A DNA stretch of 16,684 nucleotides, from positions 1 to 16,684 of the forward strand of contig JAEZQX010000021.1 in NCBI GenBank assembly GCA_023441105.1, in the 5' to 3' direction. How positions within the stretch are numbered: position 1 is the first letter of the stretch; each line of letters opens with the position of its first letter. Of this stretch, positions 1,394 to 16,494 are shown piece by piece. The stretch is from Pseudomonadota bacterium. Lineage in GTDB: Bacteria > Pseudomonadota > Gammaproteobacteria > Burkholderiales > Burkholderiaceae. Both the position numbers and the translations under genes were made by a program. Below the pieces are notes generated by a model. That model saw nothing but the letters and a program-made list of their open reading frames with translations, had not been told where the DNA came from and searched no databases.

Positions 1394-3106
1394 TCAGCCG
1401 GCTGCCGTCGGCGCCGCGACCCGGGTTCCGGCCACGGCAAGCTTGACCCGCGGCAGCTGGGCGGGCGCTACCGACAAGGTGCGCAGGCCGGTGCCGAGCA
1501 AGGCGGCGATCTCGTCCGGATCGCTGGCGGCGTCGCCGCACAGGCTGGTCTCGATCCCGCGACGGTTGCCTGCGGCAACCACCCCGGCGATCAGGCGCAG
1601 CATGGCCGGCTGGGTCGGGCTGGCCAGGTCGGCCAGCGCGCCGACATCGCGGCCGACGGCCGAAACGTATTGCGCAAGGTCGTTGGAGCCGATCGAGAAG
1701 AAGCCGGCATCGAAGGTCTCGGCCATCAGCGCGGCTGCCGGAACCTCGACCATCATGCCGACCAGGGGCATGGCCGCCGGCACGCCCGCCCGCGCCAGCG
1801 CGGCATGCTCCTCAGCGAGCATCCGCCGGACCTGCGCCAGCTCGCGCGGCATGGTCACCATCGGCACCATCACGCGGATGTCGCCGTGGCAGGCAGCCCG
1901 CGCCAGCGCCCGCAACTGCACCCGGAACACCTCCTCCCTGGCAAGCGACAGGCGCAGCCCGCGCACGCCCAGGAATGGATTGAGCTCGTTCTCGATCGTC
2001 AGGCCGGCGATCGGCTTGTCGCCGCCGGCGTCGAGCGTCCGGATGGTGACGATGCGTCCGCCCGCCCAGTCGACCATGCGCCGGTAGGCGAGGAACTGGG
2101 TCTCCTCGTCGGGCAGCCCGTCCCCGTCCTGGAAGAGGAACTCGGTGCGGGCGAGGCCGATGCCGTCGCAGGAGGCGGCATCGACCTCGTCGAGTTCGGC
2201 AAGATCGGAGACGTTGATGCAGATGCGTATCGGCAGGCCATCGGCGGTGCGGGCGGACTTGAGCCGCAGGCACTCGGCCGCCGCATCGATCGCCGCTTCG
2301 CGACGCAGGTTGTCGGCATGTTCGGCAAGCGCCGCCTCGCCCGGGCCGAGCACCACCTCGCCCCGGTTGCCATCGACCGTCGCTTCCAGGCCCTGCCACT
2401 CGCGCACCGGCAGCCTGCTCCCGTCGAGGCCGACGACCATCGGCAAGCCCCGCGCGCGCGCCAGCATCGCCACATGGCTGGTCGGGCTGCCCTGCAGCAG
2501 CAGCAAGGCGCCCAGGCGACGCGGTTCGATCGCCAGGAACCGCGACGGCGCCAGGTCGCCGGCAACCAGCAACGCGCCCTGCGGGATCTCGGCCAGCCAG
2601 TCGCCGGTATCGGAGGAGCCGCGCTGCAGGCAGTCGAGCACGCGGTCCTTGACGTCGCCGAGGTCGCTCGCGCGGGCGCGGAAGTATTCGTCCTCGGCCG
2701 TCTGGTACCAGCGGATCTGGTCGTTCAGCGCCGACCGCCAGGCTTCGACCGCCGGCCGGCCTGCGGCAATCGCCTGCAGTGCCGGCGCCACCAGCGCCTC
2801 GTCCTGCAACAACGCGAGCTGGAAGCCGAGGATGCCGACCGCGTCATCGTTGCGGGTGCCGGCGGCGCCGAGGGTGGCGATCAGGGCGCGCATTTCATCG
2901 GCGGCGACCGCCAGCGCCTTGGCCAGCATCGCCGCCTCCACCGCCGGATCGCGCACGGGCGGCTCCGCTGCGGCGACCGCTGCCGGATCCCCCTCCGGGT
3001 CCGGATAGACGTGGGCGCCCGCCCCCGTCAGCACGTCGAGCAGGTGGATCCGTCCGACAGCGTATCCCGGCGACGCCGGCCGGCCCTTGATCCGGTTGTC
3101 CTTCAT
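1394..3106 (-). CDS. PTS enzyme I (phosphoenolpyruvate-protein phosphotransferase)
   Basis: This 570-residue cytoplasmic protein has the length and motifs of PTS enzyme I, which takes phosphate from PEP and passes it to HPr. The phosphohistidine motif GSPTSHVAMLARARGLP (206-222) places the active His at 211. The PEP-binding barrel shows DGIGLARTEFLF (314-325), IRTLDAGGDKP (355-365), NPFLGVRGLRLS (376-387), VGMMVEVP (449-456), GFFSIGSNDLAQY (468-480) and the C-terminal active Cys in SLCGDAASD (521-529). The ATG at 3106 opens with MKDNRIKGRPASPGYAVG, the normal family start. The frame runs further upstream, but only antisense-like, arginine-rich sequence under dhaL. No IIA or HPr domain is attached, unlike the multidomain DhaM proteins. 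It follows dhaL by 68 bases, so it probably serves a dihydroxyacetone-kinase-type PTS. It might instead be the general or a nitrogen-type enzyme I, but the N-terminal GAF domain of PtsP is absent. Confidence 0.9.
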   Translation of the reverse strand: MKDNRIKGRPASPGYAVGRIHLLDVLTGAGAHVYPDPEGDPAAVAAAEPPVRDPAVEAAMLAKALAVAADEMRALIATLGAAGTRNDDAVGILGFQLALLQDEALVAPALQAIAAGRPAVEAWRSALNDQIRWYQTAEDEYFRARASDLGDVKDRVLDCLQRGSSDTGDWLAEIPQGALLVAGDLAPSRFLAIEPRRLGALLLLQGSPTSHVAMLARARGLPMVVGLDGSRLPVREWQGLEATVDGNRGEVVLGPGEAALAEHADNLRREAAIDAAAECLRLKSARTADGLPIRICINVSDLAELDEVDAASCDGIGLARTEFLFQDGDGLPDEETQFLAYRRMVDWAGGRIVTIRTLDAGGDKPIAGLTIENELNPFLGVRGLRLSLAREEVFRVQLRALARAACHGDIRVMVPMVTMPRELAQVRRMLAEEHAALARAGVPAAMPLVGMMVEVPAAALMAETFDAGFFSIGSNDLAQYVSAVGRDVGALADLASPTQPAMLRLIAGVVAAGNRRGIETSLCGDAASDPDEIAALLGTGLRTLSVAPAQLPRVKLAVAGTRVAAPTAAG

Positions 3107-3174
3107 CTCGAAGGCACTTCCGCGATCAGCGAAGCTTGCTGCTGGACATGGACGCAAGTCCCCCGCCGCGCCAC

Positions 3175-3798
3175 TCAAGCGTCGCGAAGCACGCTGCAGG
3201 CGGCAGCGATCATGAGCTGTGCCGACCGCGCGCCCGGATCGACATGGCCGACGGAGCGATCGCCAAGGAAAGCTGCGCGGCCACGGGTGGCCTTCAGGGC
3301 TGCGGTTGCCTCGGCCGCCTCGGCGGCCAGCGCGTCGATGCGCCCCGGCAGGTCCGGACCGCCTTCCGCGAGCAGGCGCTGCACCGGAACGAGCACGTCG
3401 AGCATCGTCTTGCAACCCGGTTCGGAGCGACCCAGGCGCTGCATGGCCATGATGGCGCCTGCCAGCGCCGCCGCCAACCGAGCGGGATCCCGCGCCGGCG
3501 CCGGCCCCGGATCCTGCCCCAGCCCCTTGCCCAGGGCGATGAACAGGGTGCCGTACAGGGGACCCGACGCACCGCCCACCTTCATCTGCAGGATGTTGCC
3601 GACGCCGCGCAAGGCATCGGGCAGCGGACGCTGCGCAAGCTGCTCGGCCTGCGCGAGCACCGCCTCGCAACCGAGCTTCATGTTCACGCCGTGGTCACCG
3701 TCTCCCGTCTCGCGATCGAGCGCGGTCAGGTCGTCTGCCGCCGCAATCACCCTCGATGCGATGGCTTCGATCAGACGACGGGTGAGCGCTTCGGTCAT
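3175..3798 (-). CDS. dhaL: DhaL, ADP-binding subunit of PTS-dependent dihydroxyacetone kinase
   Basis: This 207-residue protein matches DhaL throughout. LDRETGDGDHGVNM carries the aspartates that hold the two Mg ions at the ADP site. VGGASGPLYGTLF, EPGCKTMLDVLVPV, TRGRAAFLGDRSVGH and VDPGARSAQLM are the other family blocks. In the PTS-type kinase DhaL keeps ADP bound, is re-phosphorylated by DhaM and passes the phosphate to dihydroxyacetone held on DhaK. The ATG at 3798 is fixed by an in-frame TAG a few codons upstream; the ribosome site is weak. Enzyme I follows 68 bases downstream. No dhaK lies on either side, although it usually precedes dhaL. The partner must be elsewhere, or the pair handles another substrate of the DhaK-like kinases. 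Confidence 0.92.
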   Translation of the reverse strand: MTEALTRRLIEAIASRVIAAADDLTALDRETGDGDHGVNMKLGCEAVLAQAEQLAQRPLPDALRGVGNILQMKVGGASGPLYGTLFIALGKGLGQDPGPAPARDPARLAAALAGAIMAMQRLGRSEPGCKTMLDVLVPVQRLLAEGGPDLPGRIDALAAEAAEATAALKATRGRAAFLGDRSVGHVDPGARSAQLMIAAACSVLRDA

Positions 3799-5183: not shown

Positions 5184-5205
5184 TGGACGGCTAGGCCGCC
5201 GTCCA
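5184..5205. terminator. GC-rich hairpin between convergent genes
   Basis: TGGACGGC (5184-5191) and GCCGTCCA (5198-5205) form a perfect 8-bp stem with a 6-base loop, just beyond the permease stop and across the last codons of the SDR gene. The position suits a bidirectional terminator. No T-run follows on either side, so it may only help Rho-dependent termination or protect a 3' end. Confidence 0.35.
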
Positions 5206-5949
5206 GCCCCCATCGACCATCAGCGCCGAGCCGGTCACCATCTGCGAGGCATCGCCGGCGAGGAACACGATGGCGCCCATCACGTCCTCCAGCTGTCCAA
5301 GCCGGCCCAACGCGATGCGGGACGTGACGAAGTCCCGAAACCCGCGATCGGCGAACATCGGCTTGGTCATCGCAGTCTCGATGAACGTCGGGCAAAGCGT
5401 GTTCACGCGGATGCCGGACGGTCCCAGCTCCCAGGCCAGCGCCTTGGTGAAGCCCTCGAGCGCATGCTTGGTCGCGCAATACACAGTCCGCCGCGGACCG
5501 CCTACATGTCCCATTTGCGACGATATGTGGATCAGACTGCCGTGGAGCTTCGCCCGCTGCAGCCCTCCGGCGACGGCACGACTGACATAGAACGCGCCCT
5601 TCACGTTCAGGTCCAACACCGCATCGACGTCCTCGTCAAGCGTTTCGCCGAGCAATGCTGGCCGATTGGTGCCGGCGCTGTTCACCAGCACACGGAAGGG
5701 CCCGTGCAACGCCACGTAGCGGCTGACCGCAGCCGCGTCGGTCACATCGAGGCTCGATGTCTCGGGCCGCGTGCCACTCGACTGCGCGACAGCATCGGCC
5801 GCGGCTTCCAGTCCATGCGCATCGCGCGCGGCGAGCACGACTTCGGCCCCCGCCTGCGCCAACGCATGCGCCGCAGCGAGACCGATACCCCGGCTGCCGC
5901 CGGTCACCAGCGCGCGACGTCCGTCCAGGCGGAAGCTCGGCGTCTTCAC
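5191..5949 (-). CDS. Short-chain dehydrogenase/reductase (classical SDR)
   Basis: This 252-residue protein is a classical SDR: TGGSRGIG cofactor loop at 16-23, NSAG at 90-93, and an active-site tetrad of Asn115, Ser143/144, Tyr157 and Lys161 (YCATK). The C-terminal GSALMVDGGW is typical of the gluconate 5-dehydrogenase/3-oxoacyl reductase-like group. It should interconvert a secondary alcohol and a ketone with NAD(P). The GTG at 5949 is the best start: it gives the usual family N-terminus (FRLDGRRALVTGG) and lies 10 bases after the hisD-like stop. The ribosome site is weak, which suggests coupling. It is the last gene of the catabolic operon. Paired with an HpsN-like enzyme it recalls HpsO/HpsP, which interconvert dihydroxypropanesulfonate enantiomers, but the substrate here is unknown. 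Confidence 0.9.
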   Translation of the reverse strand: MKTPSFRLDGRRALVTGGSRGIGLAAAHALAQAGAEVVLAARDAHGLEAAADAVAQSSGTRPETSSLDVTDAAAVSRYVALHGPFRVLVNSAGTNRPALLGETLDEDVDAVLDLNVKGAFYVSRAVAGGLQRAKLHGSLIHISSQMGHVGGPRRTVYCATKHALEGFTKALAWELGPSGIRVNTLCPTFIETAMTKPMFADRGFRDFVTSRIALGRLGQLEDVMGAIVFLAGDASQMVTGSALMVDGGWTAA

Positions 5950-5959
5950 CGGACCGTGC

Positions 5960-7282
5960 TCAGGACAGCGATTCGACGGGTTCGTACCACCGCACGTCGC
6001 CGCGCGAACCGTAACGGCGCACACGTAGATTGGCCTGTTCGCCGTGTCCTGCGAAATGTTCCATGTGACAGAGCCGCGAGCAGTACTCCCCGATCAGGGC
6101 GGATGCGCTGTCGCTCGTGACGCGCTGGTATGTACAGGTCTTGAGGAACTTGCCGACCCAGAGACCGCCGGTGTAGCGAGCGCCGCGGCGCGTCGGCAGC
6201 GTGTGGTTGGTGCCGATCACCTTGTCGCCATAGCTTACGTTCGTACGAGGTCCCAGGAACAACGCGCCGTAGTTGGTCAGGCGCTTCAGGAACACGTCCG
6301 GGTCCGCAGTAAGCACCTGCACGTGTTCGAAAGCGAGGTCGTCAGCCACCTGGACCATCTCGTCGACCGAGTCGCAGACGATCACCTGCCCATAATCCGC
6401 CCAGGACTTGCGGGCGATCTCGGCCGTCGGCAGGCGCAGCAGCTGCCGCTCGATTTCGGCGACCGTGCTCCTTGCCAGGCTCTCGTCCGTCGTGAGAAGG
6501 ACTGCAGGCGACGTCGGCCCGTGCTCCGCCTGCCCCAGCAGGTCTACCGCGCACATCTCGGCGTCCGCCGTACTGTCGGCGATGATCAGCGTTTCGGTCG
6601 GCCCGGCGAACAGATCGATGCCGACGCGCCCGAACAACTGGCGCTTGGCCTCGGCCACGAACATGTTGCCGGGTCCAACCAGCATGTCGACCGGACGGAT
6701 CGATTCCGTCCCCAGCGCCATAGCGCCGACCGCCTGCATGCCGCCGAGCACGAGGATCTCGTCAGCCCCCGCCAGGTCCATCGCTGTCACAATGGCCGGG
6801 TGGGGCGAGCCTTCGAAGGGCGGCGCGGTAGCGACGATGCGCTTGACACCCGCAACCTTTGCGGTCAGCACGCTCATGTGCGCCGAGGCGATCATGGGAT
6901 ACTTGCCGCCGGGCACGTAGCAGCCTACGGAATTCACCGGGATGTGCTTGTGCCCGAGCACCACGCCTGGCATGGTCTCGATCTCGACTTCGCGCATCGA
7001 ATCGAGCTGGGCATGCGCGAAGCGCCGGATCTGCGCCTGTGCGAAAGCGATGTCCTCGAGCTCGCGCGGCGACATCTTCTTCGCGGCCGCCTCGATCTCC
7101 GCCCGCGTGAGCCGGAACGACTGCGGCGCCCACTTGTCGAACTTCTGCGAGAGCTCGCGCACGGCGTCGTCTCCGCGCGCGGTGATGTCCTTCAGCGTCT
7201 TCTCGACGATCGAACGGACTTCGCCGTCCTGCTCGGCGATCTCGGCGTCGCTCGCGCCCTGTTTCAGGTATTGGATGGTCAT
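5960..7282 (-). CDS. Histidinol-dehydrogenase-like alcohol dehydrogenase (HpsN type)
   Basis: This 440-residue protein belongs to the HisD superfamily of zinc, NAD-linked dehydrogenases that can take a primary alcohol through the aldehyde to the acid. The zinc ligands are in place: Gln251 and His254 (GQAEHG), Asp353 (SYGDK) and His413 (AGHGEQA). The catalytic pair Glu319-His320 (FEH) is also present. Several blocks, [49 protein letters not shown] and [12 protein letters not shown], look closer to sulfopropanediol 3-dehydrogenase HpsN than to histidine-pathway HisD. The context is catabolic with no other his gene, so a histidine role is unlikely. ATG at 7282 has GAGGA about seven bases upstream; the frame above it is not coding. 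It lies 26 bases after the crotonase stop and 10 before the SDR start. Substrate unproven: a sulfonated or other hydroxy compound. Confidence 0.9.
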
Positions 7283-7308
7283 CTCGGTTCCTCGGCAATG
7301 GGAGGGAG

Positions 7309-8193
7309 TCAGGGCTTCACGAACGGGTCGCCGAACGGGGCGTCCCTCTTCCGGACGGCCCCGCCGAAGCCAAGCTCGGTCATGTCGGCGCGGAACTGCT
7401 TGTTCGAGCGCGCCTGGTGGCCGCGGGCATCGTTCTCCACCGCCAGCCGCTGCAGCGTGCGGACGCCCATCAGCTCCATTGCGACGTTCACGACCCGCTT
7501 GTTCACGGCCAGGATGTCGGGATCGACCAGTGCCAATCGGGCCGCGAGCGCGGCGACGTGTGCGTCCAGCTGCGCGACTGGATGGCAATGCACAGCAAGG
7601 CCGATCCGGGCCGCATCCGCACCAAGGAGGAGATCGCCGGTCAGCAGCAGGCGCTTGGCCCATTGCGGTCCGACCAGGTAAGTCCACATATGTGACGGCG
7701 GCGAACCCTGCGAGCGGGTTGCCGGAAAGCCGATGCGAGCGTCGTCCGCGACGACCACGAGGTCGCACGCGAACGCCAGGTCGGTTCCACCGGCGAGGCA
7801 ATGCCCGTGCACCTTGGCGATCACCGGCTTGTGGATGTCCATGATCGTGAAGATGTCGGCCTGGTTGCGTTCCATCCGCCAGATGTCATTGTCGTGGCTG
7901 GCCGACGGCACGCGGTAGTCGGCGGCATCGTAGTCGTCCGTGGCGGGTGCACCGGCAGCGGGTTCGGCCTTGTAGTCGACCATGTCGTAGCCCGAGCAGA
8001 AATCGCTGCCCGCGCCCTGAAGCACCACGCAGTGCACGGCCTGGCGGTCGTCCGCTTCCAGCAACGCCTGCCGCAACTCCTGCATCAGCAGGCGGTTCAG
8101 CGCATTGCGCTTCTCCGGTCGGTTCAGCGTGATCGTCGCCACCCCACCGGCGACGTCGAAGAGGATGTGCTCGGTGCTCTTAAGCCATTTCAT
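7309..8193 (-). CDS. Crotonase-family (enoyl-CoA hydratase/isomerase) protein with altered active site
   Basis: This 294-residue protein has the crotonase fold: NRPEKRNAL (24-32), the oxyanion-hole segment DFCSGYD (64-70) and [16 protein letters not shown] (129-144). Of the two glutamates that hydrate enoyl-CoA in rat mitochondrial hydratase (Glu144, Glu164), the first is replaced by Asp138. The second aligns with Ala158 in GFPATRSQG. An insertion of about 30 residues rich in Asp and Ala follows the oxyanion strand (73-103). The later block [21 protein letters not shown] marks a distinct subgroup of annotated enoyl-CoA hydratases. It may be an isomerase, hydrolase or lyase rather than a hydratase. 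The ATG at 8193 has AAGGAG seven bases upstream and overlaps the synthetase gene by 14 bases, so the two are translationally coupled and probably act in sequence. Confidence 0.88.
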
Positions 8194-10357
8194 TGCCTGC
8201 TCCTTCCGGCGCTACAGCCGGGACCGGCTTTGCCTGGCGGACCACGAGGGCATCGACCGCGTGGATCTGCCCGTTGTGGCCGCAAATAAGGGGATTGACG
8301 TCGAGCTCCAGCAACTCGCCGCGCATGTCGTCGACCATCGTCGAGATGCGGCTCACGACGTCCGCGAGCCGCTCCAGGTCGACGGCCGGAAGGCCACGCA
8401 CGCCTCGCAGCACCTGCGCACCGCGCAGGTCCAGCAGCATGGCGTGCGCCTCCTCGCGCGAAACCGGTACGGGAGCGATGGATACGTCGGCCAGCAACTC
8501 GACGAACACGCCACCGAGGCCGACGACGAGCAGCGGCCCGAACTGGGGATCGCGCCGGGCACCGACAATCACCTCGACGCCTGCCTTGATCATCGGCTGC
8601 ACCAGCACACCGGCCACGCGCGCTTGTGGCGCGGCAAGCGAGACGCTCTCCATCATCTCGCCATAGGCCTGAATCGCTTCGTCGCGGGACCGGATGCCAA
8701 GCCGAACGCCGCCGATGTCGCTCTTGTGATGCACGTCCGGCGATTCGATCTTCATCACTACCGGGTAACCCATGGCATCGGCGGCGGCCACAGCTTCAGC
8801 CGCGCTGGTCGCGACAGCATCGGTCACGACCTGCACGCCATAAAGGGCCAGCAGTTGCTTGGCTTCGCGTTCACCGAGGGTCGGCGAGGCGCAGCGATCC
8901 CAAAGCTCCGCCGCGGCCCTGCGCTGCGCGGCCGGTATGTCGGCGAACGTGCGGCGAAGCTGCTTCCAGGCGTGGTGATCGTGCCAGGCACGCAGCGTGG
9001 CGAAGCACCGGTCCATCGAGTGGAAGACCGGCACGCGCTCGCTCTGTTCGAATTCGATGGCGCCGGGGCCTTCATGCCACTGGCTGACCCAAACGGCGCA
9101 GACCGGCTTGCCGCTGCGCCTGCCCGTTTCCTCGTAGACGGCGACACGCGCGGCCAGCGCCTGCGCCGCCCACGGGTGCGTCGTGACGAGCGCTCCATAG
9201 TCGTCGCTCATCGCGAAGGCTTCGCAGCAGGCCGCCAGCGAACCGGGACTGCCCAGCACCTGCGCCGTCAGGTCGCACGGGTTGCGTGTCGAGCCATAGC
9301 TGGGAATATGCTGCTGCAGGACGGCCAGCGTAGCCGCGTCCGGTTGCGGCAGCGGGACTCGGTTCTCCTCGGCCTTGTCGGTGGCCATGATGCCGGTCCC
9401 ACCGGAGGAGGAGACGATGGCCACGCCCTTGGCGCGCGGGGGCGGCGCCTTCGAGAAGAAGCTCGCCGTCTCGACCAGGGCCTCCAAGGAGTCGACGAGG
9501 ACGACGCCTGCGCTGCGCAGCACCGCGCGGTAGGCGCTGTCGGAGCCCGCAAGCGAGCCGGTGTGCGACATCGCCGCCTGGGCGCCCTGATCGCCCGTCG
9601 CCGTCTTGTACATGACGACGACCTTCTCACGGCTCGAGGCGAGAGCCGCTGCCTCGACGATGCGCAAGGGCGCGCTGCTTCCTTCGAACACGCACGCGAT
9701 GGCGCTGCAGGCGGGCTCGTCCGCGAGGTAGGCGATCAGGTCCGCCGTGTCCACATCGCAACCATTGCCGAACGTCAGCACGTGGCTGATCGCCACGCCG
9801 CGCCGGCGCGCCTGGGACATCGCGATGCCGATCGCGCCGGACTGGCTCACGACGCCGATGCCGCGCCGCACCGCCACGTCGCCTCCGGTGAAGTCCGCGA
9901 AAGAGAGCACCAGCTTCTTCGTGTGGTTCGCGATGCCGAGGCAGTTCGGGCCGAACACCGCGATGCCGGTCCGGCGGGCGATGCGGGCGATGCGCTCCTG
10001 CCGCTCGGAATCCCCGACTTCGCCGAAGCCCGAGGCGTAGACGACCACCCCGCCCACGCCCGCATCAGCGCACTCCGTGACCAGCGCTTCCGTCTGGTCG
10101 CCCGGCGTGGCGAGGACGACGCAGTCGGGCACCTTCGGCAGGTCCGACACCGACGGGTAGGTGCGCCCCTGCGACAGCGCGGCGCTGCTCCGGCTGACCA
10201 GCAGGACCTCGCCGTCGAAGCCGGCAAGGTTGTCCAGCGTACGGGCGCCGAACGAGCCGGGACGATTGGATGCACCGACGACGGCGATGGTGCGGGGCGC
10301 CAATGCGCGCTCGAGCGCATCCCGCCGCTTGAACGTGCCGCTCACCGGCCGTGTCAT
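8180..10357 (-). CDS. ADP-forming acyl-CoA synthetase, single chain
   Basis: This 725-residue protein joins the alpha and beta parts of NDP-forming acyl-CoA synthetases. Residues 15-140 form a CoA-binding Rossmann domain (AVVGASNRPGSFG, VFGPNCLG). Residues 160-460 are two succinyl-CoA-ligase-like flavodoxin domains with the phospho-His segment MSHTGSLAGSD (His265). Residues 490-705 are an ATP-grasp domain with YPVVMKIESPDVHHKSDIGGV, carrying the second relay His (543/544), and LDVNPL near the end. It makes acyl-CoA from acid, CoA and ATP through phosphohistidine. The order CoA-binding to ATP-grasp matches the Acd and FerA type. No acetyltransferase (GNAT) domain is attached, so it is not a Pat protein acetylase. 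Its ATG has GGAG seven bases upstream overlapping the Bug stop. Substrate unknown. Confidence 0.92.
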   Translation of the reverse strand: MTRPVSGTFKRRDALERALAPRTIAVVGASNRPGSFGARTLDNLAGFDGEVLLVSRSSAALSQGRTYPSVSDLPKVPDCVVLATPGDQTEALVTECADAGVGGVVVYASGFGEVGDSERQERIARIARRTGIAVFGPNCLGIANHTKKLVLSFADFTGGDVAVRRGIGVVSQSGAIGIAMSQARRRGVAISHVLTFGNGCDVDTADLIAYLADEPACSAIACVFEGSSAPLRIVEAAALASSREKVVVMYKTATGDQGAQAAMSHTGSLAGSDSAYRAVLRSAGVVLVDSLEALVETASFFSKAPPPRAKGVAIVSSSGGTGIMATDKAEENRVPLPQPDAATLAVLQQHIPSYGSTRNPCDLTAQVLGSPGSLAACCEAFAMSDDYGALVTTHPWAAQALAARVAVYEETGRRSGKPVCAVWVSQWHEGPGAIEFEQSERVPVFHSMDRCFATLRAWHDHHAWKQLRRTFADIPAAQRRAAAELWDRCASPTLGEREAKQLLALYGVQVVTDAVATSAAEAVAAADAMGYPVVMKIESPDVHHKSDIGGVRLGIRSRDEAIQAYGEMMESVSLAAPQARVAGVLVQPMIKAGVEVIVGARRDPQFGPLLVVGLGGVFVELLADVSIAPVPVSREEAHAMLLDLRGAQVLRGVRGLPAVDLERLADVVSRISTMVDDMRGELLELDVNPLICGHNGQIHAVDALVVRQAKPVPAVAPEGAGNEMA

Positions 10358-10361
10358 TCGC

Positions 10362-11363
10362 TCACTCCACCTTCACGTTGATACGTTTGACGAGATCTCC
10401 GTACCGGCGCGACTCGTCCGCGACGCGCGCGCTGAACTCCTGCGGTGACAGGGTCCAGATGCGTCCCTGCGCGGACAGCGCCGGGCGGAACTTCGGATCG
10501 GCGGTGATGGCGCGAATGTGCGCGCCGAGTGCTTCCACGATGTCGGCCGGCGTTCCCGCGGGCGCCAGGATCGCCGTCCAGGCGACGATTCCCATCTCCG
10601 GCATGTCGACGTCGGTCACCGACGGAACTTGCGGCAGGTCGGGCCAGCGTTCGCTGTCGGTCACCGCGAGCGCCCGCAGCCTGCCTTCCTTGATCAGCGG
10701 CGCATTGGAGATCGGGCCGACGGTGTAGTCGACCTCACCCCCGAGCAGCGCCACGTCCGCCGGCGCGGAGCCTCGGAACGGCACATGCAGCGATTGAAAG
10801 CCGAGGGAGGTGCTCAACTGCGCGGCGGCGAGGTGCGTCAGGTTGCCGTTGCCCGCGGACCCATAGGACAGACCATCCGGCTTGGAGGCGGCGACGCGCT
10901 TGAGGTCCTTGAGCGTGTGGACGGATTTCATCAGCGGCTGGTTCGGATTGACGGCCACCACCAGCGGCACCGACACGATCGGCGTGACGAAGCTGAAGTC
11001 GTTCTGCGGAACGTAGCCGAGGTTGCTGTACAGGTGTGGATTCACTGTCAGCGGGCTGGAGGTGGAGATCAGGAGCGTGAATCCGTCGGGCTTGGCCCTG
11101 GCGACAGCCGCCGCGGCGAGCATGCCGTTGGCGCCCGTCTTGTTTTCGACTACGAAGGTGCCGCCGGTGCGTTGGCTCAAGGCGGTCGCAACGGTGCGCG
11201 ACACCAAGTCCGCGGTGCTGCCCGGAGCGAAGCCGACGACGATGGTCACCGGGCGCTGCGGCCACGCCGTGGCCGGTGACTGCGTTTGCGCTCCAGCGGT
11301 GGTGGAGGCTGCGCAGGCGAGGCCGACGGCCGCCCACGCGAGGATGCGATGGATCTTATTCAT
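10362..11363 (-). CDS. Bug/TctC-family extracytoplasmic solute-binding protein
   Basis: This 333-residue protein has a signal peptide ending in AGAQ near residue 25 and a mature part with the Bug signatures. WPQRPVTIVVGFAPGSTAD, VVENKTGANGMLAAAAVA, the PDGFTLL strand, and GEVDYTVGPISNAPLIKEGRLRALAV followed by PDLPQVPS are all present. Bug proteins bind carboxylates or related small molecules in the periplasm, some for tripartite tricarboxylate transporters and many as orphans. No TctA or TctB gene is in the window, so this is an orphan or is served by a distant permease. The ATG at 11363 has a strong AAAGGAG site six bases upstream. It lies between the carboxylase (45-base gap) and the synthetase (4-base gap), so it is part of the operon and probably binds the pathway's substrate. 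Its abundance in such operons supports the Burkholderiales assignment. Confidence 0.93.
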   Translation of the reverse strand: MNKIHRILAWAAVGLACAASTTAGAQTQSPATAWPQRPVTIVVGFAPGSTADLVSRTVATALSQRTGGTFVVENKTGANGMLAAAAVARAKPDGFTLLISTSSPLTVNPHLYSNLGYVPQNDFSFVTPIVSVPLVVAVNPNQPLMKSVHTLKDLKRVAASKPDGLSYGSAGNGNLTHLAAAQLSTSLGFQSLHVPFRGSAPADVALLGGEVDYTVGPISNAPLIKEGRLRALAVTDSERWPDLPQVPSVTDVDMPEMGIVAWTAILAPAGTPADIVEALGAHIRAITADPKFRPALSAQGRIWTLSPQEFSARVADESRRYGDLVKRINVKVE

Positions 11364-11408
11364 GCTGTCTCCTTTTGACGAATTTCTCGTTCAGGGTTGA
11401 ATGCTCGT

Positions 11409-14400
11409 TCACCAGGCGTCGAGATCTGGCGCGTGGGCCGCGGAGGAGTGCGCCGGCTGCCGGCGCGCGGCATGGAGGCCGTCGACGAGCCACGCGCGCG
11501 TGTGCGCCGGGTCGATGACGTCGTCGATGCTCAGGTATGGCGCTATGTTCACGGCCTTGTTGCGCTCGTAGAGGCGGTCCACGTACTGCTTGAGGCGCGC
11601 CTGGCGCTCGCCGGCGTCTTCGATCGCCTCGAGCTCGCGCCGGTGCCCAAGGCGCGCCTGGCCTTCCAGCCCCATGGAGCCGAACTCGCCCGTGGGCCAT
11701 GCGACCGCGAACACCGAACCCGCAAAGCACCCAGCCCCCATTGCCATCCCACCCAGCCCGTAGGCCTTGCGCAAGACGATCGTGAAGAACGGTACCTGCA
11801 GTTTCGGCCCGGCCAGGAAGATGCGCGCCACGTGTCGCACAAGCGCGGTGCGCTCTGCATCGGGACCGACCATGAAGCCTGGCGTGTCGCACAAGGACAC
11901 GATCGGAAGCCCGAAGGTGTTGCACAGCTTCATGAAACGCGTGAGCTTGTCGGCCTCTTCCGCACCGATCGCCCCGCCGTTGGCACGTGAATCGTTGGCC
12001 ACGACGCCCACCGCACGGCCCTCGATGCGCGCAAAGCCCGTGTACACGCCGCGGCCGAAGGCGTGGCGCAACTCGAGGCCCGAGTCGATGTCGACGATAC
12101 GATGGATGACGTCTCGCACCTGGTACGCGCGCGTGCGGCGCTCCGGGATGGCTTCGCGCAGGGGCTCCTGCGGAGCGCACGACCAGTGCGTCACGTCACC
12201 CTGGAAGTAGGCGAGGTACTTCTTGGCGACCGAAACCGCCTGCGCCTCATCATCGACGAGGACGTCCACGACGCCCTGTCGCGCGTGCATGTCGGCCGGG
12301 CCGACATCCCCCGTCTTGACGCGGCCCAGTCCCGCGCCTTCGATCATCACGGGGCCACCCATGCCGATCGACGCGTTGCGGGTCGAGATCGTGACGTCGC
12401 AGCAGCCCAGCATGGCGGCACTGGCCGCAAAGCAGGGTCCGGATACGATGCCCACCAGCGGCACGAGGCCGCTCAGGCGGCCCAGCTTCCAGAAGGTCGG
12501 GTTCGCCAGGTTTACGCCGGCGAAGTTGTCGGTGTCCAGCGCCCGCCCGCCGCCGCCCTCGGTGAAGAGCACCAGCGGCAGGCGGTGCTGCTCCGCCTGC
12601 TCAAACAGGCGGTCGAGCTTCTTGTGACCGATGAAGCCCTGCGTGCCGCTGAACACCGTGTAGTCGGACGTGCCGACGAAGCAGCGGCTGCGCTCCGGCC
12701 CGAACAGGTTGCCGTTGATCGACGCGAGGCCGTAGATGAAGCCGTCCGCAGGGCTGATGCGCTGCAGTTCCTCGAAGCTGCGCGAGGTGCGCTGTGCTGC
12801 AACGGCGAGCGCGCCGTACTCGCGGAACGAGCCGGGATCGCAGAGATCGGCGAGGTTTTCGCGCGCCGTGCGCTGGCCTGTGGCGTGACGACGTGCCACT
12901 GCTTCGGGCCGGCTTTCGTCGAGGGTGAGCGCATGGCGCGCGCGGACGTCCTCGAGGTCCGCCCGCGGCCCGGAGGCGACAAGCCGTTCGGTGCGCGTCG
13001 TGGCCTCAGCGGACCCATCCGGCTCCAGCACCACGAGCAACTGACCCGGCGTCACCTGGTCCCCGCGCGAGACGAGGACCTCGCGCACCCAGCCGGCCGC
13101 CGGCAATGCGATGGTGTGCTCCATCTTCATCGCATCCAGCACCAGCAATTGCTGGCCGGCCTCCACCCGCTGCCCAGTCGTGACGCTGACCTCGGCCACC
13201 TTGGCGCGCATCTCGGAGACGACCGGCTCCAAGCCCTCGGCCACCTCTGCTTCGGCGGTCTCGGCCGCCGGTATCCCAGTGTCTTGAAGCGCCCCGTTCG
13301 GCTGCTGCGACTTGCGGCGAGTCGGGTGGGCACCGTCCGCCCGCATGAGGGACGGCGCGAACTCCTCCAGGAAGGATGTCGATGCGGGGACTTCCCGAAA
13401 GGCCGGGAGCACGAGCAGGTTCTGAAGGAACTGCAGGTTGTTCTCGACGCCGGCCAGGGTGAACTCCCCGGCGGCGCGGTAGGCACGGTCCACCGTATCG
13501 CCGAAGTGCGGGGAGCGCGACGTCACGATCACCTTGGCCAGCAGAGAGTCGAAATTGCGGCTCGGGGCATAGCCGGTGAAGCAGTGCGTGTCCACGCGCA
13601 CACCCGGCCCTGCGGGCGGCTCGAAGAACTGGATCACACCCGTTGAAGGAGGCGGCGCCGCCGCAGTCATGTCCTCCATGAGCACGCGCAACTGCATGGC
13701 ATACCCGGGATAGAAGCGCACCTGCTCCTGCGAGATCCCGAGGTCTCGTAACGTCTCTCCCGCGGCCAGACGGATCTGCGAGGCGACGATGTCCACGCCC
13801 GTCACCTCCTCGGTGACGGTGTGCTCCACCTGCAGGCGGGGATTCGCCTCCATGAAGAAGAACGGAGGCTCCTGCCGGCGGGGTTCCAGCGGCACAAGAA
13901 ACTCGAAGGTGCCGGCGGTCTCGTAGCGGCTCTCCCGCGCCAACGCGAGCGCGGCATCAGTGATCTGCCGCCGCACCGCGGGATCGAGCCAGGGACTGGG
14001 CGCGATCTCGACGATCTTCTGGTGGCGTCGCTGGATGCTGCAGTCACGGTCGCCCAAGTGGACGGCGTGGCGGCCGTCACCGAGCACCTGGACCTCGATG
14101 TGCCGCGCGGCCGGGATGACCTGCTCCACATACAGCTCTGCATGGCCGAAGGCCTTGTCCGCCTCCGATGCGCATTGCGCATAGGCGGCATCGAGTTCCG
14201 CAACTGAGGCTACTCGGCGCATGCCGCGGCCGCCGCCGCCGGAGATGGCCTTGACCATGATCCCCGTGCCGTCCGGCAGCGAGCGCATGAAGGCGCGCGC
14301 ATCCACGAGCGAGGTTGGGCCGGCAGTGCCGCGAGGGATCGGCACATGCCGTGCCTCTGCGAACTCGCGGGCTCGGCCCTTGTCGCCGAACAGCCGCAGG

Positions 14401-14726
14401 CTGGCTTCCGATGGGCCGATGAAGGCGATGCCCGCGGCGCGGCAATCGCGGGCGAAGTCCGCGTTCTCGCTCAGGAATCCGTAGCCGGGATGGATCGCGT
14501 CGCAGCCCGTGCGCGCCGCCGCGGCGAGCAGCGCCCGGATGTCCAGGTAGGCGCCCGGGCCGCTCGCGTGCAGCGTCACGTCCGCATCGCTCATCCGGCC
14601 ATGCATTGCGCCGACATCGTCCTGCGAGCTGACGGAGACGCTCTGGATCCGGAGATCCGCCGCGGCACGCGCGATGCGAACCGCGATCTCACCGCGGTTC
14701 GCGATGAGGATTCGCTTGAACGGCAT
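11409..14726 (-). CDS. Single-chain biotin-dependent acyl-CoA carboxylase (BC-BCCP-CT)
   Basis: One 1105-residue chain holds the full reaction. Residues 1-455 are biotin carboxylase: FKRILIANRGEIAVRI, HPGYGFLSEN (79-88), the ATP glycine loop SGGGGRGMR (162-170), FMEANPRLQVEHTVTE (291-306). Residues 500-570 are the biotinyl domain with AMKM, biotin on Lys534 (LDAMKMEH, Asp in place of the usual Glu). Residues 590-1085 are both carboxyltransferase halves, with GGGGRAL (724-730), GPCFAASAAML, then FGRGVYTGFARIEG, NDSRANGGAIGAEEADK and CDTPGFMVGP. The 45-residue linker is too short for the BT domain of two-subunit MCC/PCC/GCC. The layout and size fit the single-chain long-chain acyl-CoA carboxylases. 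The start is the ATG at 14726, five bases after the dioxygenase stop; the frame continues upstream only as an antisense-like shadow. It carboxylates an acyl- or enoyl-CoA of unknown identity. Confidence 0.92.
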   Translation of the reverse strand: MPFKRILIANRGEIAVRIARAAADLRIQSVSVSSQDDVGAMHGRMSDADVTLHASGPGAYLDIRALLAAAARTGCDAIHPGYGFLSENADFARDCRAAGIAFIGPSEASLRLFGDKGRAREFAEARHVPIPRGTAGPTSLVDARAFMRSLPDGTGIMVKAISGGGGRGMRRVASVAELDAAYAQCASEADKAFGHAELYVEQVIPAARHIEVQVLGDGRHAVHLGDRDCSIQRRHQKIVEIAPSPWLDPAVRRQITDAALALARESRYETAGTFEFLVPLEPRRQEPPFFFMEANPRLQVEHTVTEEVTGVDIVASQIRLAAGETLRDLGISQEQVRFYPGYAMQLRVLMEDMTAAAPPPSTGVIQFFEPPAGPGVRVDTHCFTGYAPSRNFDSLLAKVIVTSRSPHFGDTVDRAYRAAGEFTLAGVENNLQFLQNLLVLPAFREVPASTSFLEEFAPSLMRADGAHPTRRKSQQPNGALQDTGIPAAETAEAEVAEGLEPVVSEMRAKVAEVSVTTGQRVEAGQQLLVLDAMKMEHTIALPAAGWVREVLVSRGDQVTPGQLLVVLEPDGSAEATTRTERLVASGPRADLEDVRARHALTLDESRPEAVARRHATGQRTARENLADLCDPGSFREYGALAVAAQRTSRSFEELQRISPADGFIYGLASINGNLFGPERSRCFVGTSDYTVFSGTQGFIGHKKLDRLFEQAEQHRLPLVLFTEGGGGRALDTDNFAGVNLANPTFWKLGRLSGLVPLVGIVSGPCFAASAAMLGCCDVTISTRNASIGMGGPVMIEGAGLGRVKTGDVGPADMHARQGVVDVLVDDEAQAVSVAKKYLAYFQGDVTHWSCAPQEPLREAIPERRTRAYQVRDVIHRIVDIDSGLELRHAFGRGVYTGFARIEGRAVGVVANDSRANGGAIGAEEADKLTRFMKLCNTFGLPIVSLCDTPGFMVGPDAERTALVRHVARIFLAGPKLQVPFFTIVLRKAYGLGGMAMGAGCFAGSVFAVAWPTGEFGSMGLEGQARLGHRRELEAIEDAGERQARLKQYVDRLYERNKAVNIAPYLSIDDVIDPAHTRAWLVDGLHAARRQPAHSSAAHAPDLDAW

Positions 14727-14731
14727 CTTCT

Positions 14732-15577
14732 TCAGGCCGGTGCCAGTTGCGCCTTGGCGCGGGCGGCAGCCTCCAGCGCGGCCACCTCCGGGGAATCCAG
14801 CGACACGGCCCGCAGGGTGCGGGGCTGCGACGGGTCGAAGGTCGTGCGGGCGTGCTGAAGCATCACGTTGTCCCAGAGGATGAGGTCGTGCAGCTTCCAC
14901 ACGTGCGTGTAGATGAACTCCTCGCGCTCGATGCAGGCCCACAACTGCTTGAGCATGGCGCGGAACTCCGGCCGCTCCATGCCGGGGATGTCCTTCGCCA
15001 CCGCCCGGCTCACCATCAGCACCGGCTTGCCGGAAGGCCCGTGGCGCCCAACGATCGGCCGGGTGTGTTCGTCCATCCACTGCTGCCCATCGCGCTCGTA
15101 GACGACGGCGTGGCGGGCACAGAGGTTGTCGATACGCACGCGAAGATCCACGGGCAGTGATTCGTACACCGCGTTCACGTTCGAGAACAGCGTGTTGCCG
15201 CCTTCGGTGGGCAGCTGCAGGGCATGCAACGCACGCGCCTTCAGCGGCCACTCGAGAAAGGTCAGGTCGGAATGAAAGGACAGCTCGCCGTCACCGAAGA
15301 TCACGTCACCGTTGCGGTTCGACACCAGCGCGGAGCGACGTCCCGCCTTCGCATAGCCCTTGCCGCCGCGCCCCGAGACGACGCCGACCAGCTCGCAGAG
15401 TTTGACCTGCTGCGCTTCGGTGAGTTCCTGCCCGCGGATCAGGACCAGGTAGTGGCGCTCGAAGGCGCTGCGGATCGCGCCGGCGACCTCCGGATCGTCG
15501 ACCTCTCGTGGATCCAGGCCGACTATCTCGGCACCGACATGCCGCGACAGCGGACGGATGGAAAAGCGGTTGCCCAT
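14732..15577 (-). CDS. TauD/TfdA-family Fe(II)/2-oxoglutarate dioxygenase
   Basis: This 281-residue cytoplasmic enzyme carries the iron triad His102-x-Asp104 (SFHSDLTFLEWP) and distal His242 (WDNVMLQHARTTFD). The 2-oxoglutarate-binding arginine is in RTLRAVSL (Arg253 or Arg256). Members couple 2-oxoglutarate decarboxylation to hydroxylation of substrates such as taurine, 2,4-D, alkyl sulfates or other acids, often releasing a leaving group. Length and spacing are normal for the family. The ATG at 15577 follows a purine-rich AGAGGAG site. As the first gene after the divergent regulator it probably starts the pathway. I cannot tell which substrate it takes; the lack of sulfur-starvation genes nearby argues weakly against simple taurine use. 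Confidence 0.92.
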   Translation of the reverse strand: MGNRFSIRPLSRHVGAEIVGLDPREVDDPEVAGAIRSAFERHYLVLIRGQELTEAQQVKLCELVGVVSGRGGKGYAKAGRRSALVSNRNGDVIFGDGELSFHSDLTFLEWPLKARALHALQLPTEGGNTLFSNVNAVYESLPVDLRVRIDNLCARHAVVYERDGQQWMDEHTRPIVGRHGPSGKPVLMVSRAVAKDIPGMERPEFRAMLKQLWACIEREEFIYTHVWKLHDLILWDNVMLQHARTTFDPSQPRTLRAVSLDSPEVAALEAAARAKAQLAPA

Positions 15578-15659: not shown

Positions 15660-15674
15660 GTTCACATAGCGAAC
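15660..15674. promoter_or_regulatory. Candidate IclR-family operator, GTTC-N7-GAAC
   Basis: GTTCACATAGCGAAC has perfect outer arms (GTTC/GAAC) and one further matched inner pair. It resembles the 15-bp sites of aromatic-pathway IclR proteins such as PcaR/PcaU (GTTCGATAATCGCAC) in size and in the GTTC arm. It overlaps the -35 element of the iclR promoter and lies about 19 bases upstream of the candidate operon -35, so one site could repress the regulator and control the operon. Confidence 0.5.
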
Positions 15675-15690
15675 CGTTGCCCTGTATGAT
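15661..15690 (+). promoter_or_regulatory. Sigma-70 promoter of the iclR-family gene
   Basis: TTCACA (15661-15666) and TATGAT (15685-15690) each match consensus at five of six positions with 18 bases between them. Transcription starting about seven bases after the -10 falls at 15697, the A of the iclR ATG, so the transcript may be leaderless. The GTTC-N7-GAAC repeat covers the -35, which suggests autorepression. Confidence 0.55.
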
Positions 15691-15696
15691 GGACAC

Positions 15697-16494
15697 ATGC
15701 CACGAAACGCGGGCCCCGCACGCACTGCGAGCACAACCGGCACGCAGTCCATCGAGCGCGCTGCGCGGATCCTGCGTGAACTTGGAACGCGGTCCCGCGT
15801 AGGCTGGGGCCTCACCGAGCTGGCGGCGCGGTGCGAGCTGGACAAGGGAACGACGCATCGGATCGTGAGCGGGTTGTTGCGCGAGCGGCTAGTCGCTCGA
15901 CACCCCAAGGCAGCGCGGTATGTCCCCGGCCCGCTGCTCTTCGAGCTCAGTCTCGGGCTGGACGTGCATGCCCGGCTGCGGGATATGGGAGGCGACATCG
16001 CCAAGCGGTTGGCGCGCCGGCACGGCGGCATCTCCGCTGTCACGCTCGCCAGCGGCTTCGACGCCGTATGCTGCGCGCATTTCGGCAAAACCTCGGTTCG
16101 CGCCTTCTCATTCGCGGTGGGGGACCGGCGGCCCATGGTCATGAATTCAGCCGGCGTCGCCATGTTGATCCATCTGCAGCCTTCCACTCAGCGCGCCGCG
16201 TGCACGTATGGCCTCGACCGAGTCCGCCACCTGGGCGACGAGCGGCTGCGCAAGATCCGGGCGATGGTGGAACGGTCTTCGCAGCTTGGCTACGGCCTCA
16301 ACCAGGACAACACGGTTGCCGGCATCACCGGTGTCGCAGTCGCCGTGCTGGATGGCAATCGCCAGCCCGTCGCGGCCGTCAGCATCACTGGAACGACGGA
16401 GCAGTTTCCCGCATCCAAGATCTCGGCATTGGCCGAAGCACTGAGGGAAGAGGCAGCCGTTCTATCGCAGGCGCTCCCGATGGATCCGCTGTAG
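15697..16494 (+). CDS. IclR-family transcriptional regulator
   Basis: This 265-residue protein has the IclR plan. A winged helix-turn-helix spans residues 15-75 (SIERAARILREL, LTELAARCELDKGTTHRIVSGLLRERLV). An effector-binding domain spans about 90-260 and ends with GITGVAVAVLDGNRQPVAAVSITG. IclR proteins are dimers or tetramers that bind pathway acids and repress or activate adjacent operons. The gene is divergent from the seven-gene operon with 119 bases between starts, the standard layout of a local regulator. The ATG at 15697 has no clear ribosome site, which fits the predicted leaderless transcript. A Cys-Cys pair near residues 127-128 in the effector domain is unusual enough to note. 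Its ligand is unknown. Confidence 0.92.
   Translation: MPRNAGPARTASTTGTQSIERAARILRELGTRSRVGWGLTELAARCELDKGTTHRIVSGLLRERLVARHPKAARYVPGPLLFELSLGLDVHARLRDMGGDIAKRLARRHGGISAVTLASGFDAVCCAHFGKTSVRAFSFAVGDRRPMVMNSAGVAMLIHLQPSTQRAACTYGLDRVRHLGDERLRKIRAMVERSSQLGYGLNQDNTVAGITGVAVAVLDGNRQPVAAVSITGTTEQFPASKISALAEALREEAAVLSQALPMDPL

Follow-up and report, generated by a model that had tools for sequence, protein, structure and literature searches.

A rare, probably catabolic operon of Burkholderiaceae combining a single-chain acyl-CoA carboxylase, an atypical crotonase-fold protein and a HisD-superfamily dehydrogenase of the KYPM/KYPL clade

The window analysed here is a stretch of 16,684 nucleotides (positions 1-16,684 of contig JAEZQX010000021.1, assembly GCA_023441105.1) from a member of Burkholderiaceae, which contains a block of seven genes on the minus strand (5191-15577). 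Reading of the open reading frames (ORFs) revealed, in gene order, an Fe(II)/2-oxoglutarate (2OG) dioxygenase of the TauD/TfdA family (14732-15577, 281 aa; PF02668, 169 bits), a single-chain biotin-dependent acyl-CoA carboxylase (11409-14726, 1105 aa), a Bug-type periplasmic binding protein (TctC; 10362-11363, 333 aa; PF03401, 195 bits), an ADP-forming acyl-CoA synthetase, hereafter the ligase (8180-10357, 725 aa; CoA_binding_2, Succ_CoA_lig and ATP-grasp_5 domains), a crotonase-fold protein of the PRK08272 subfamily (7309-8193, 294 aa), a HisD-superfamily dehydrogenase (HDH; 5960-7282, 440 aa; PF00815), which a sequence motif and a tree place in the KYPM/KYPL clade described below, and a short-chain dehydrogenase (SDR; 5191-5949, 252 aa; Y157-x3-K). 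The intergenic gaps are 5, 45, 4, -14, 26 and 10 bases. GTG at 5949 was chosen as the SDR start, and an alternative GTG at 6024 is also open. An earlier note on this DNA had described seven same-strand genes with gaps of at most 45 bases, overlap included, and had named their enzyme families. Both descriptions held: among the ten window proteins scanned, all seven block proteins matched the expected Pfam domains above curated cut-offs. An IclR-family regulator recognised by Pfam (15697-16494, plus strand) diverges from the block.

The same note had proposed a genome search for the block, and this revealed that the block is conserved together with its regulator. A carboxylase scan of species-representative genomes confirmed 116 loci, and the best 80 were compared by tblastn with nine window proteins (the seven block proteins, IclR and EamA), keeping rows of at least 90 bits. 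Caenimonas sp. SL110 (L001) has the whole block and iclR in the same order and strand, with 73-83% amino acid identity for the seven block genes and 64% for IclR. A Burkholderiales metagenome-assembled genome (G002) carries them on two contigs, one with IclR (64% identical to that of the window), TauD, carboxylase and Bug up to the contig end (L006), and another with the ligase from base 28, followed by crotonase, HDH and SDR (L132). EamA found no match in L001 or L006 at this threshold. The next carboxylase loci (L002-L005 and L007-L010, 47-58% identity), some of them on cut contigs, gave no TauD, crotonase or HDH row of at least 90 bits, and L010 has a ligase relative of 49% identity about 5.5 kb from its carboxylase. 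Three pairs of listed relatives may lie on common contigs, judged solely by equal contig size: TauD P0004 and crotonase P0123 (40,180 bp), TauD P0006 and crotonase P0124 (24,764 bp), and crotonase P0126 and HDH P0243 (338,224 bp). A fourth pair (P0003 and P0242, 83,555 bp) is the Caenimonas contig itself and not an extra case.

The block is rare. A TauD match was confined to the seed genome (G001) among 399 genomes of the family (E <= 1e-50), and again among 330 genomes of the order (E <= 1e-60). Among 60 genomes of its genus, nine gave a match at E <= 1e-30, and identity above 50% occurred only in G001. Relatives of HDH, in contrast, occur at 65% identity or more in 35 of these 399 genomes. 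We regard the block as very probably a genuine catabolic operon.

Between iclR and tauD lies a palindrome, GTTC-N7-GAAC (15660-15674), 22 bases ahead of the iclR start, and equivalents are found 21 bases before iclR in Caenimonas (GTCC-N7-GGAC) and in L006 (GTTC-N7-GAAC). A 4-7-4 repeat that all three share at one distance, to within a base, was recovered in 0 of 20,000 single-base shuffles, a result that is not a strict probability because arm and spacer lengths were fixed after the repeat had been seen. The palindrome overlaps a promoter-like site (15661-15690) reading towards iclR. It is compatible with an IclR operator, through which IclR may exert control.

The carboxylase is a single chain on which a biotin carboxylase, a biotin carboxyl carrier protein and a carboxyltransferase (CT) domain follow one another, with the biotinyl Lys534 in an AMKM motif, which is the arrangement of LCC and YCC enzymes. 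Its closest PDB chains are the single-chain enzymes 4rcn (LCC) and 5fif, the latter from Deinococcus radiodurans and of the YCC type. The CT domain was compared with 40 listed chains by score ranking, without a tree. After 4rcn and 5fif came 28 transcarboxylase and propionyl-CoA carboxylase (PCC) or acetyl-CoA carboxylase (ACC) type chains (238-149 bits), so that 30 of the 40 outscored the first beta chain of methylcrotonyl-CoA carboxylase (MCC; 143.9 bits). The MCC beta chains ranged from 144 to 114 bits and geranyl-CoA carboxylase (GCC) scored 132.7 bits; the other chains among the bottom ten were AccD1 (135.5 bits), 9yx0 (133.6 bits) and two short PCC fragments (about 113 bits). By this ranking, MCC and GCC beta chains are not the closest relatives of the CT domain. 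The GCC paper describes two lineages, of which one carboxylates saturated acids at the alpha carbon and the other unsaturated acids at the gamma carbon (PMC4673880). Because the CT domain ranks with PCC/ACC-type chains above MCC and GCC, and in view of this lineage split, alpha-carboxylation by the operon carboxylase appears likelier.

The ranking bears on two other explanations. The co-occurrence of ligase, carboxylase and crotonase in one block would suit an MCC- or GCC-like route, in which a branched enoyl-CoA is gamma-carboxylated and then hydrated by the crotonase to a product like 3-hydroxy-3-methylglutaryl-CoA, and ligase and crotonase relatives elsewhere do cluster with acyl-CoA dehydrogenases. 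However, the CT scores point away from MCC and GCC, the crotonase is without the second catalytic Glu, and the block has no lyase or acyl-CoA dehydrogenase. This route is very unlikely and was rejected on the CT scores and the crotonase residues, in agreement with the earlier statement that the operon does not match leucine or geranyl-CoA routes. Alternatively, the carboxylase might handle only a short end-product acyl-CoA of the propionyl- or acetyl-CoA type, while the actual route would consist of oxygenation, alcohol oxidation, CoA ligation and cleavage by the crotonase. The position of transcarboxylase and PCC-type chains right after the two single-chain enzymes is consistent with this, as are two loci where genes of the TauD, Bug, ligase and crotonase types occur with no carboxylase match. 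In a genome of the genus group of Caenimonas (G454, L176) the four stand side by side (45%, 30%, 33% and 53% identity, respectively), and in Variovorax SRS16 (L090) they lie within about 8 kb at 32-33% identity, with other genes between them. However, both L001 and L006 retain the carboxylase, which comes second in the block. Furthermore, Caenimonas has seven CT-family matches, and one of them (683 bits) has a methylmalonyl-CoA mutase gene 2.4 kb away, so the operon enzyme is probably not the propionyl-CoA carboxylase of this strain, a function likely served elsewhere. An end-product role for the carboxylase is rather unlikely in our judgement.

The crotonase-fold protein differs from ordinary enoyl-CoA hydratases, whose catalytic pair is Glu144 and Glu164 in the rat enzyme. 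Alignment with 5zai places Asp138 and Ala158 at these two positions. Across 77 aligned rows (the query and 76 of the 120 listed relatives), the first position is Asp in 77/77 and the second is Ala in 70 and Pro in seven, so the canonical two-Glu pair is absent. Because Asp and Ala replace both catalytic Glu residues, plain hydration is unlikely and the protein is probably no ordinary hydratase. The hydratase-type step of the earlier note could not be upheld, as no row, the query included, has Glu at the second position. In the AlphaFold model, mean pLDDT of the active-site region was 93 with 77 sequences and 68 with 16. The top three hits of the fold search are enzymes known only as enoyl-CoA hydratases and indicate no reaction; likewise, plasmid matches (58% at best) indicate no substrate.

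The 14-base overlap of the ligase and crotonase genes recalls a phenylpropanoid route of the FerA/FerB kind, in which an ADP-forming ligase, as FerA is, would act with a hydratase-lyase and TauD would serve as demethylase. However, the crotonase reached only 112 of the 276 bits required by the hydroxycinnamoyl-CoA hydratase/lyase model (NF006588), whereas it passed that of PRK08272 (349.7 versus 257 bits), and such a route gives carboxylase and HDH no role. It is very unlikely and was rejected on model scores and crotonase residues; the mismatch with the ferulate route noted before is thus borne out.

The ligase is closest in the PDB to the 4-hydroxybutyrate-CoA ligase 8wzu and stays below the NCBIfam cut-off for the ADP-forming enzyme of that name (403.9 versus 1300 bits). 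Its His265, within SHTGSLAG, is presumably the phospho-His. In ten stretches of family genomes examined by eye, relatives of the ligase (47-50%) and the crotonase (55-61%) mostly lie beside acyl-CoA dehydrogenase, thiolase-like and MaoC-like genes. In TauD, the iron triad (H102, D104, H242) and the 2OG-binding R253 are invariant in 14/14 rows including the query. TfdA (5bke) is its closest PDB entry, the taurine dioxygenase cut-off of NCBIfam was not reached (99.8 versus 313 bits), and plasmid matches (34% at best) point to no substrate. As a separate observation, G454 (L175-L178) has numerous TauD-family candidates (57 at first look, 41 scored and seven at E <= 1e-30) and many Bug genes, often adjoining TauD-family genes.

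The HpsN and TauD names could suggest sulfonate catabolism of the 2,3-dihydroxypropane-1-sulfonate (DHPS) type. His126 of HpsN, the DHPS-3-dehydrogenase of Cupriavidus pinatubonensis, recognises the sulfonate and sets the enzyme apart from HisD (PMC11382572). The window HDH retains the catalytic residues of HpsN (Glu318, His319, Asp352 and Lys353, as E319-H320 and D353-K354) and has Met130, within GKYPM, at the position of His126. GKYPM, with Met for His, likewise occurs in the HDHs of L001 and L132, and HisD copies carry GKAAY there. At least 8000 candidates passed E 1e-120 in the search for HDH relatives, and among the best 120 (P0241-P0360), KYPM occurs in 116 and KYPL in three, with one row not matching the pattern. 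The name sulfopropanediol 3-dehydrogenase, given by JGI to 21 of these 120 (counted by eye), and the nearest solved structures, which are HpsN-type DHPS dehydrogenases, speak for the sulfonate explanation. However, the HDHs of the window, L001 and L132 have another residue in place of this His, and so do 119 of the 120 relatives listed, whereas three HDHs at 48-50% identity (L134-L136) keep it (RYAH). Two of these (L134 and L135) have a CuyA-type gene nearby, that of L134 passing the curated D-cysteate sulfo-lyase model (561 versus 450 bits). In addition, no CuyA, SuyAB or Xsc domain was found among the ten window proteins scanned, which are a subset of the window ORFs and bounded by the window ends. 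DHPS-type catabolism is extremely unlikely, and an HpsN or sulfonate identity of HDH was rejected on the replacement of His126 by Met130 and the near universality of KYPM/KYPL among listed relatives. HDH is thus probably not what the label HpsN-like, used in the earlier note, implies, and the sulfonate hint in that label falls away.

A tree of 33 HDH rows, built by a quick method with SH-aLRT support only, placed the three operon HDHs in one clade (support 99), apart from the CuyA-linked HDHs and within a third, KYPM/KYPL clade of 26 rows (support 99) with a nested sub-clade of 20 rows (support 98). The remaining HDHs of this third clade carry K[YF]P[ML]. The three operon SDRs also group together (support 94), and an SDR relative follows HDH in many genomes. 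SDR partners occur in the DHPS operon as well.

Analysis of 26 HDH neighbourhoods (three HpsN-type and 23 KYPM/KYPL loci) revealed a LacI gene (at least 50% identity) in 15/23 KYPM/KYPL loci and an HpcH/HpaI aldolase, FAH-type hydrolase, or IlvD/EDD or UxaA-type dehydratase in 14/23; one of these matches, that of HpcH in L149, reaches only 33% identity. Neither marker group appeared in 33 control loci, a contrast that is inflated because the markers were drawn from loci within the counted set (L142, L137, L141 and L156); with the donors removed, the counts are 14/22 for LacI and 10/19 for the second marker group. No close LacI gene was found in L141, L150 and L156, and the grouping of the operon HDHs in the tree does not depend on how loci are assigned to LacI. 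Pfam confirmed the marker types, and two IlvD genes exceeded the threshold for L-arabinonate dehydratase (973 and 1072 versus 882 bits), with no specific NCBIfam cut-off passed by FAH, HpcH or UxaA-type neighbours. On plasmids, the best 25 of 258 records with HDH matches included 13 with an annotated gene under the match; ten were read, all of them with KYPM or KYPL and six with a LacI regulator. In public annotation, HDHs of this kind have genes for sugars or sugar acids next to them in Advenella, Variovorax, Mesorhizobium, Klebsiella and Roseomonas, and the Advenella order is HDH, SDR, RraA, Bug, L-arabinonate dehydratase, two hydroxyacid oxidoreductases and LacI. Because His126 is missing and the KYPM/KYPL neighbourhoods hold SDR, LacI, dehydratase and aldolase genes, oxidation of a polyol or sugar acid by HDH seems likelier. 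The name sulfopropanediol 3-dehydrogenase has probably been over-propagated in this clade, where the neighbourhoods favour sugar-acid or polyol catabolism. Since clade members without the sulfonate-binding His bear it, name-based counts of DHPS degraders may be too high. Besides these markers, two-domain SnoaL-type proteins recur near HDH, SDR and LacI (L142-L154), with SnoaL_A and SnoaL_B each in 10/26 loci, donor L142 counted.

The operon looks like a composite of sets that are found apart elsewhere, namely the HDH-SDR pair, the TauD-Bug-ligase-crotonase set and a YCC/LCC-type carboxylase. From these families we infer a flow in which the Bug protein would bind a small carboxylate, either hydroxylated or of the ether type, the Fe(II)/2OG enzyme would hydroxylate it or open a C-O bond, and HDH with the help of SDR would convert CHOH-CH2OH to a carboxylate by four-electron oxidation. 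The ligase would then form the CoA thioester, converting ATP to ADP, the carboxylase would add CO2 at the alpha carbon, and the crotonase-fold enzyme might end the route by a non-hydration reaction such as C-C cleavage, decarboxylation or thioester hydrolysis. This sequence of steps, their order and the type of substrate are proposed tentatively, as a possibility somewhat short of even. Several observations weigh against it. The block contains no thiolase, acyl-CoA dehydrogenase or transporter membrane part, and no dehydratase or aldolase to carry on a sugar-acid route. Furthermore, crotonase, ligase or thiolase genes adjoin HDH in L209 and L210, acyl-CoA dehydrogenases lie upstream of it in Variovorax L205, and FAH, RND and DUF1302/DUF1329 genes stand beside it in L137 and L157, so polyol chemistry is not the sole option for the clade. 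In a more specific version, which is quite unlikely, the operon would encode a natural CO2-adding route: HDH and SDR would produce a hydroxy acid, the ligase its hydroxyacyl-CoA and a natural hydroxyacyl-CoA carboxylase the product that the crotonase-fold enzyme would split in a new reaction. To our knowledge, hydroxyacyl-CoA carboxylase exists solely as an engineered enzyme.

A search of the open-access literature found no pathway of this composition, which is weak evidence but agrees with the earlier note; all parts belong to known families, and the combination appears new. The catabolic-operon interpretation given there stands as regards the conserved operon, the families and the mismatches with known routes, and it is not supported as regards the sulfonate hint and the hydratase-type crotonase. 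If the proposed flow is true, the operon would be a compact, testable system for three functions: the substrates of YCC-type single-chain carboxylases, the role of PRK08272 crotonases without the usual Glu pair, and the oxidation target of the KYPM/KYPL clade.

Outside the block, the window encodes an imelysin/peptidase M75 family protein (58-1251; PF09375, 266 bits). By eye and without a model, an ORF within 1394-3670 resembles a PtsI-like phosphotransfer protein, and another (3175-3798) the DhaL subunit of dihydroxyacetone kinase.

Four known systems can be compared with the operon. HpsN and the window HDH share the HisD family and the Glu-His and Asp-Lys active site, but the window enzyme differs in Met130, in its separate clade and in having no sulfolyase gene among the ten scanned window proteins. 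With the single-chain YCC/LCC enzymes, the window carboxylase shares the domain order on one chain, and it is 48.8% identical to the homologue on a D. radiodurans plasmid. Among six annotated YCC plasmid loci read, an AMP-binding ligase directly precedes the carboxylase in three (Tistrella, D. radiodurans and R. opacus), and an ADP-forming ligase is listed in none, unlike in the window operon. The carboxylase right after an AMP-binding CoA ligase in L084 (the D. radiodurans plasmid), L082 and L086, from three distant lineages, hints at a common ligase-carboxylase unit. In Aminobacter aminovorans pAA02 (L209), HDH-SDR likewise adjoins an enoyl-CoA hydratase-family gene and a CoA ligase; however, the ligase is an acetoacetate-CoA ligase, uptake is of the ABC type, no TauD or carboxylase is listed, and its crotonase gave no match above 70 bits to that of the window. 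The HDH-SDR-LacI locus of Advenella kashmirensis pWTk445 has HDH and SDR 80% and 62% identical to those of the window and also a Bug gene, but it carries L-arabinonate dehydratase and hydroxyacid oxidoreductases where the window operon has CoA enzymes.

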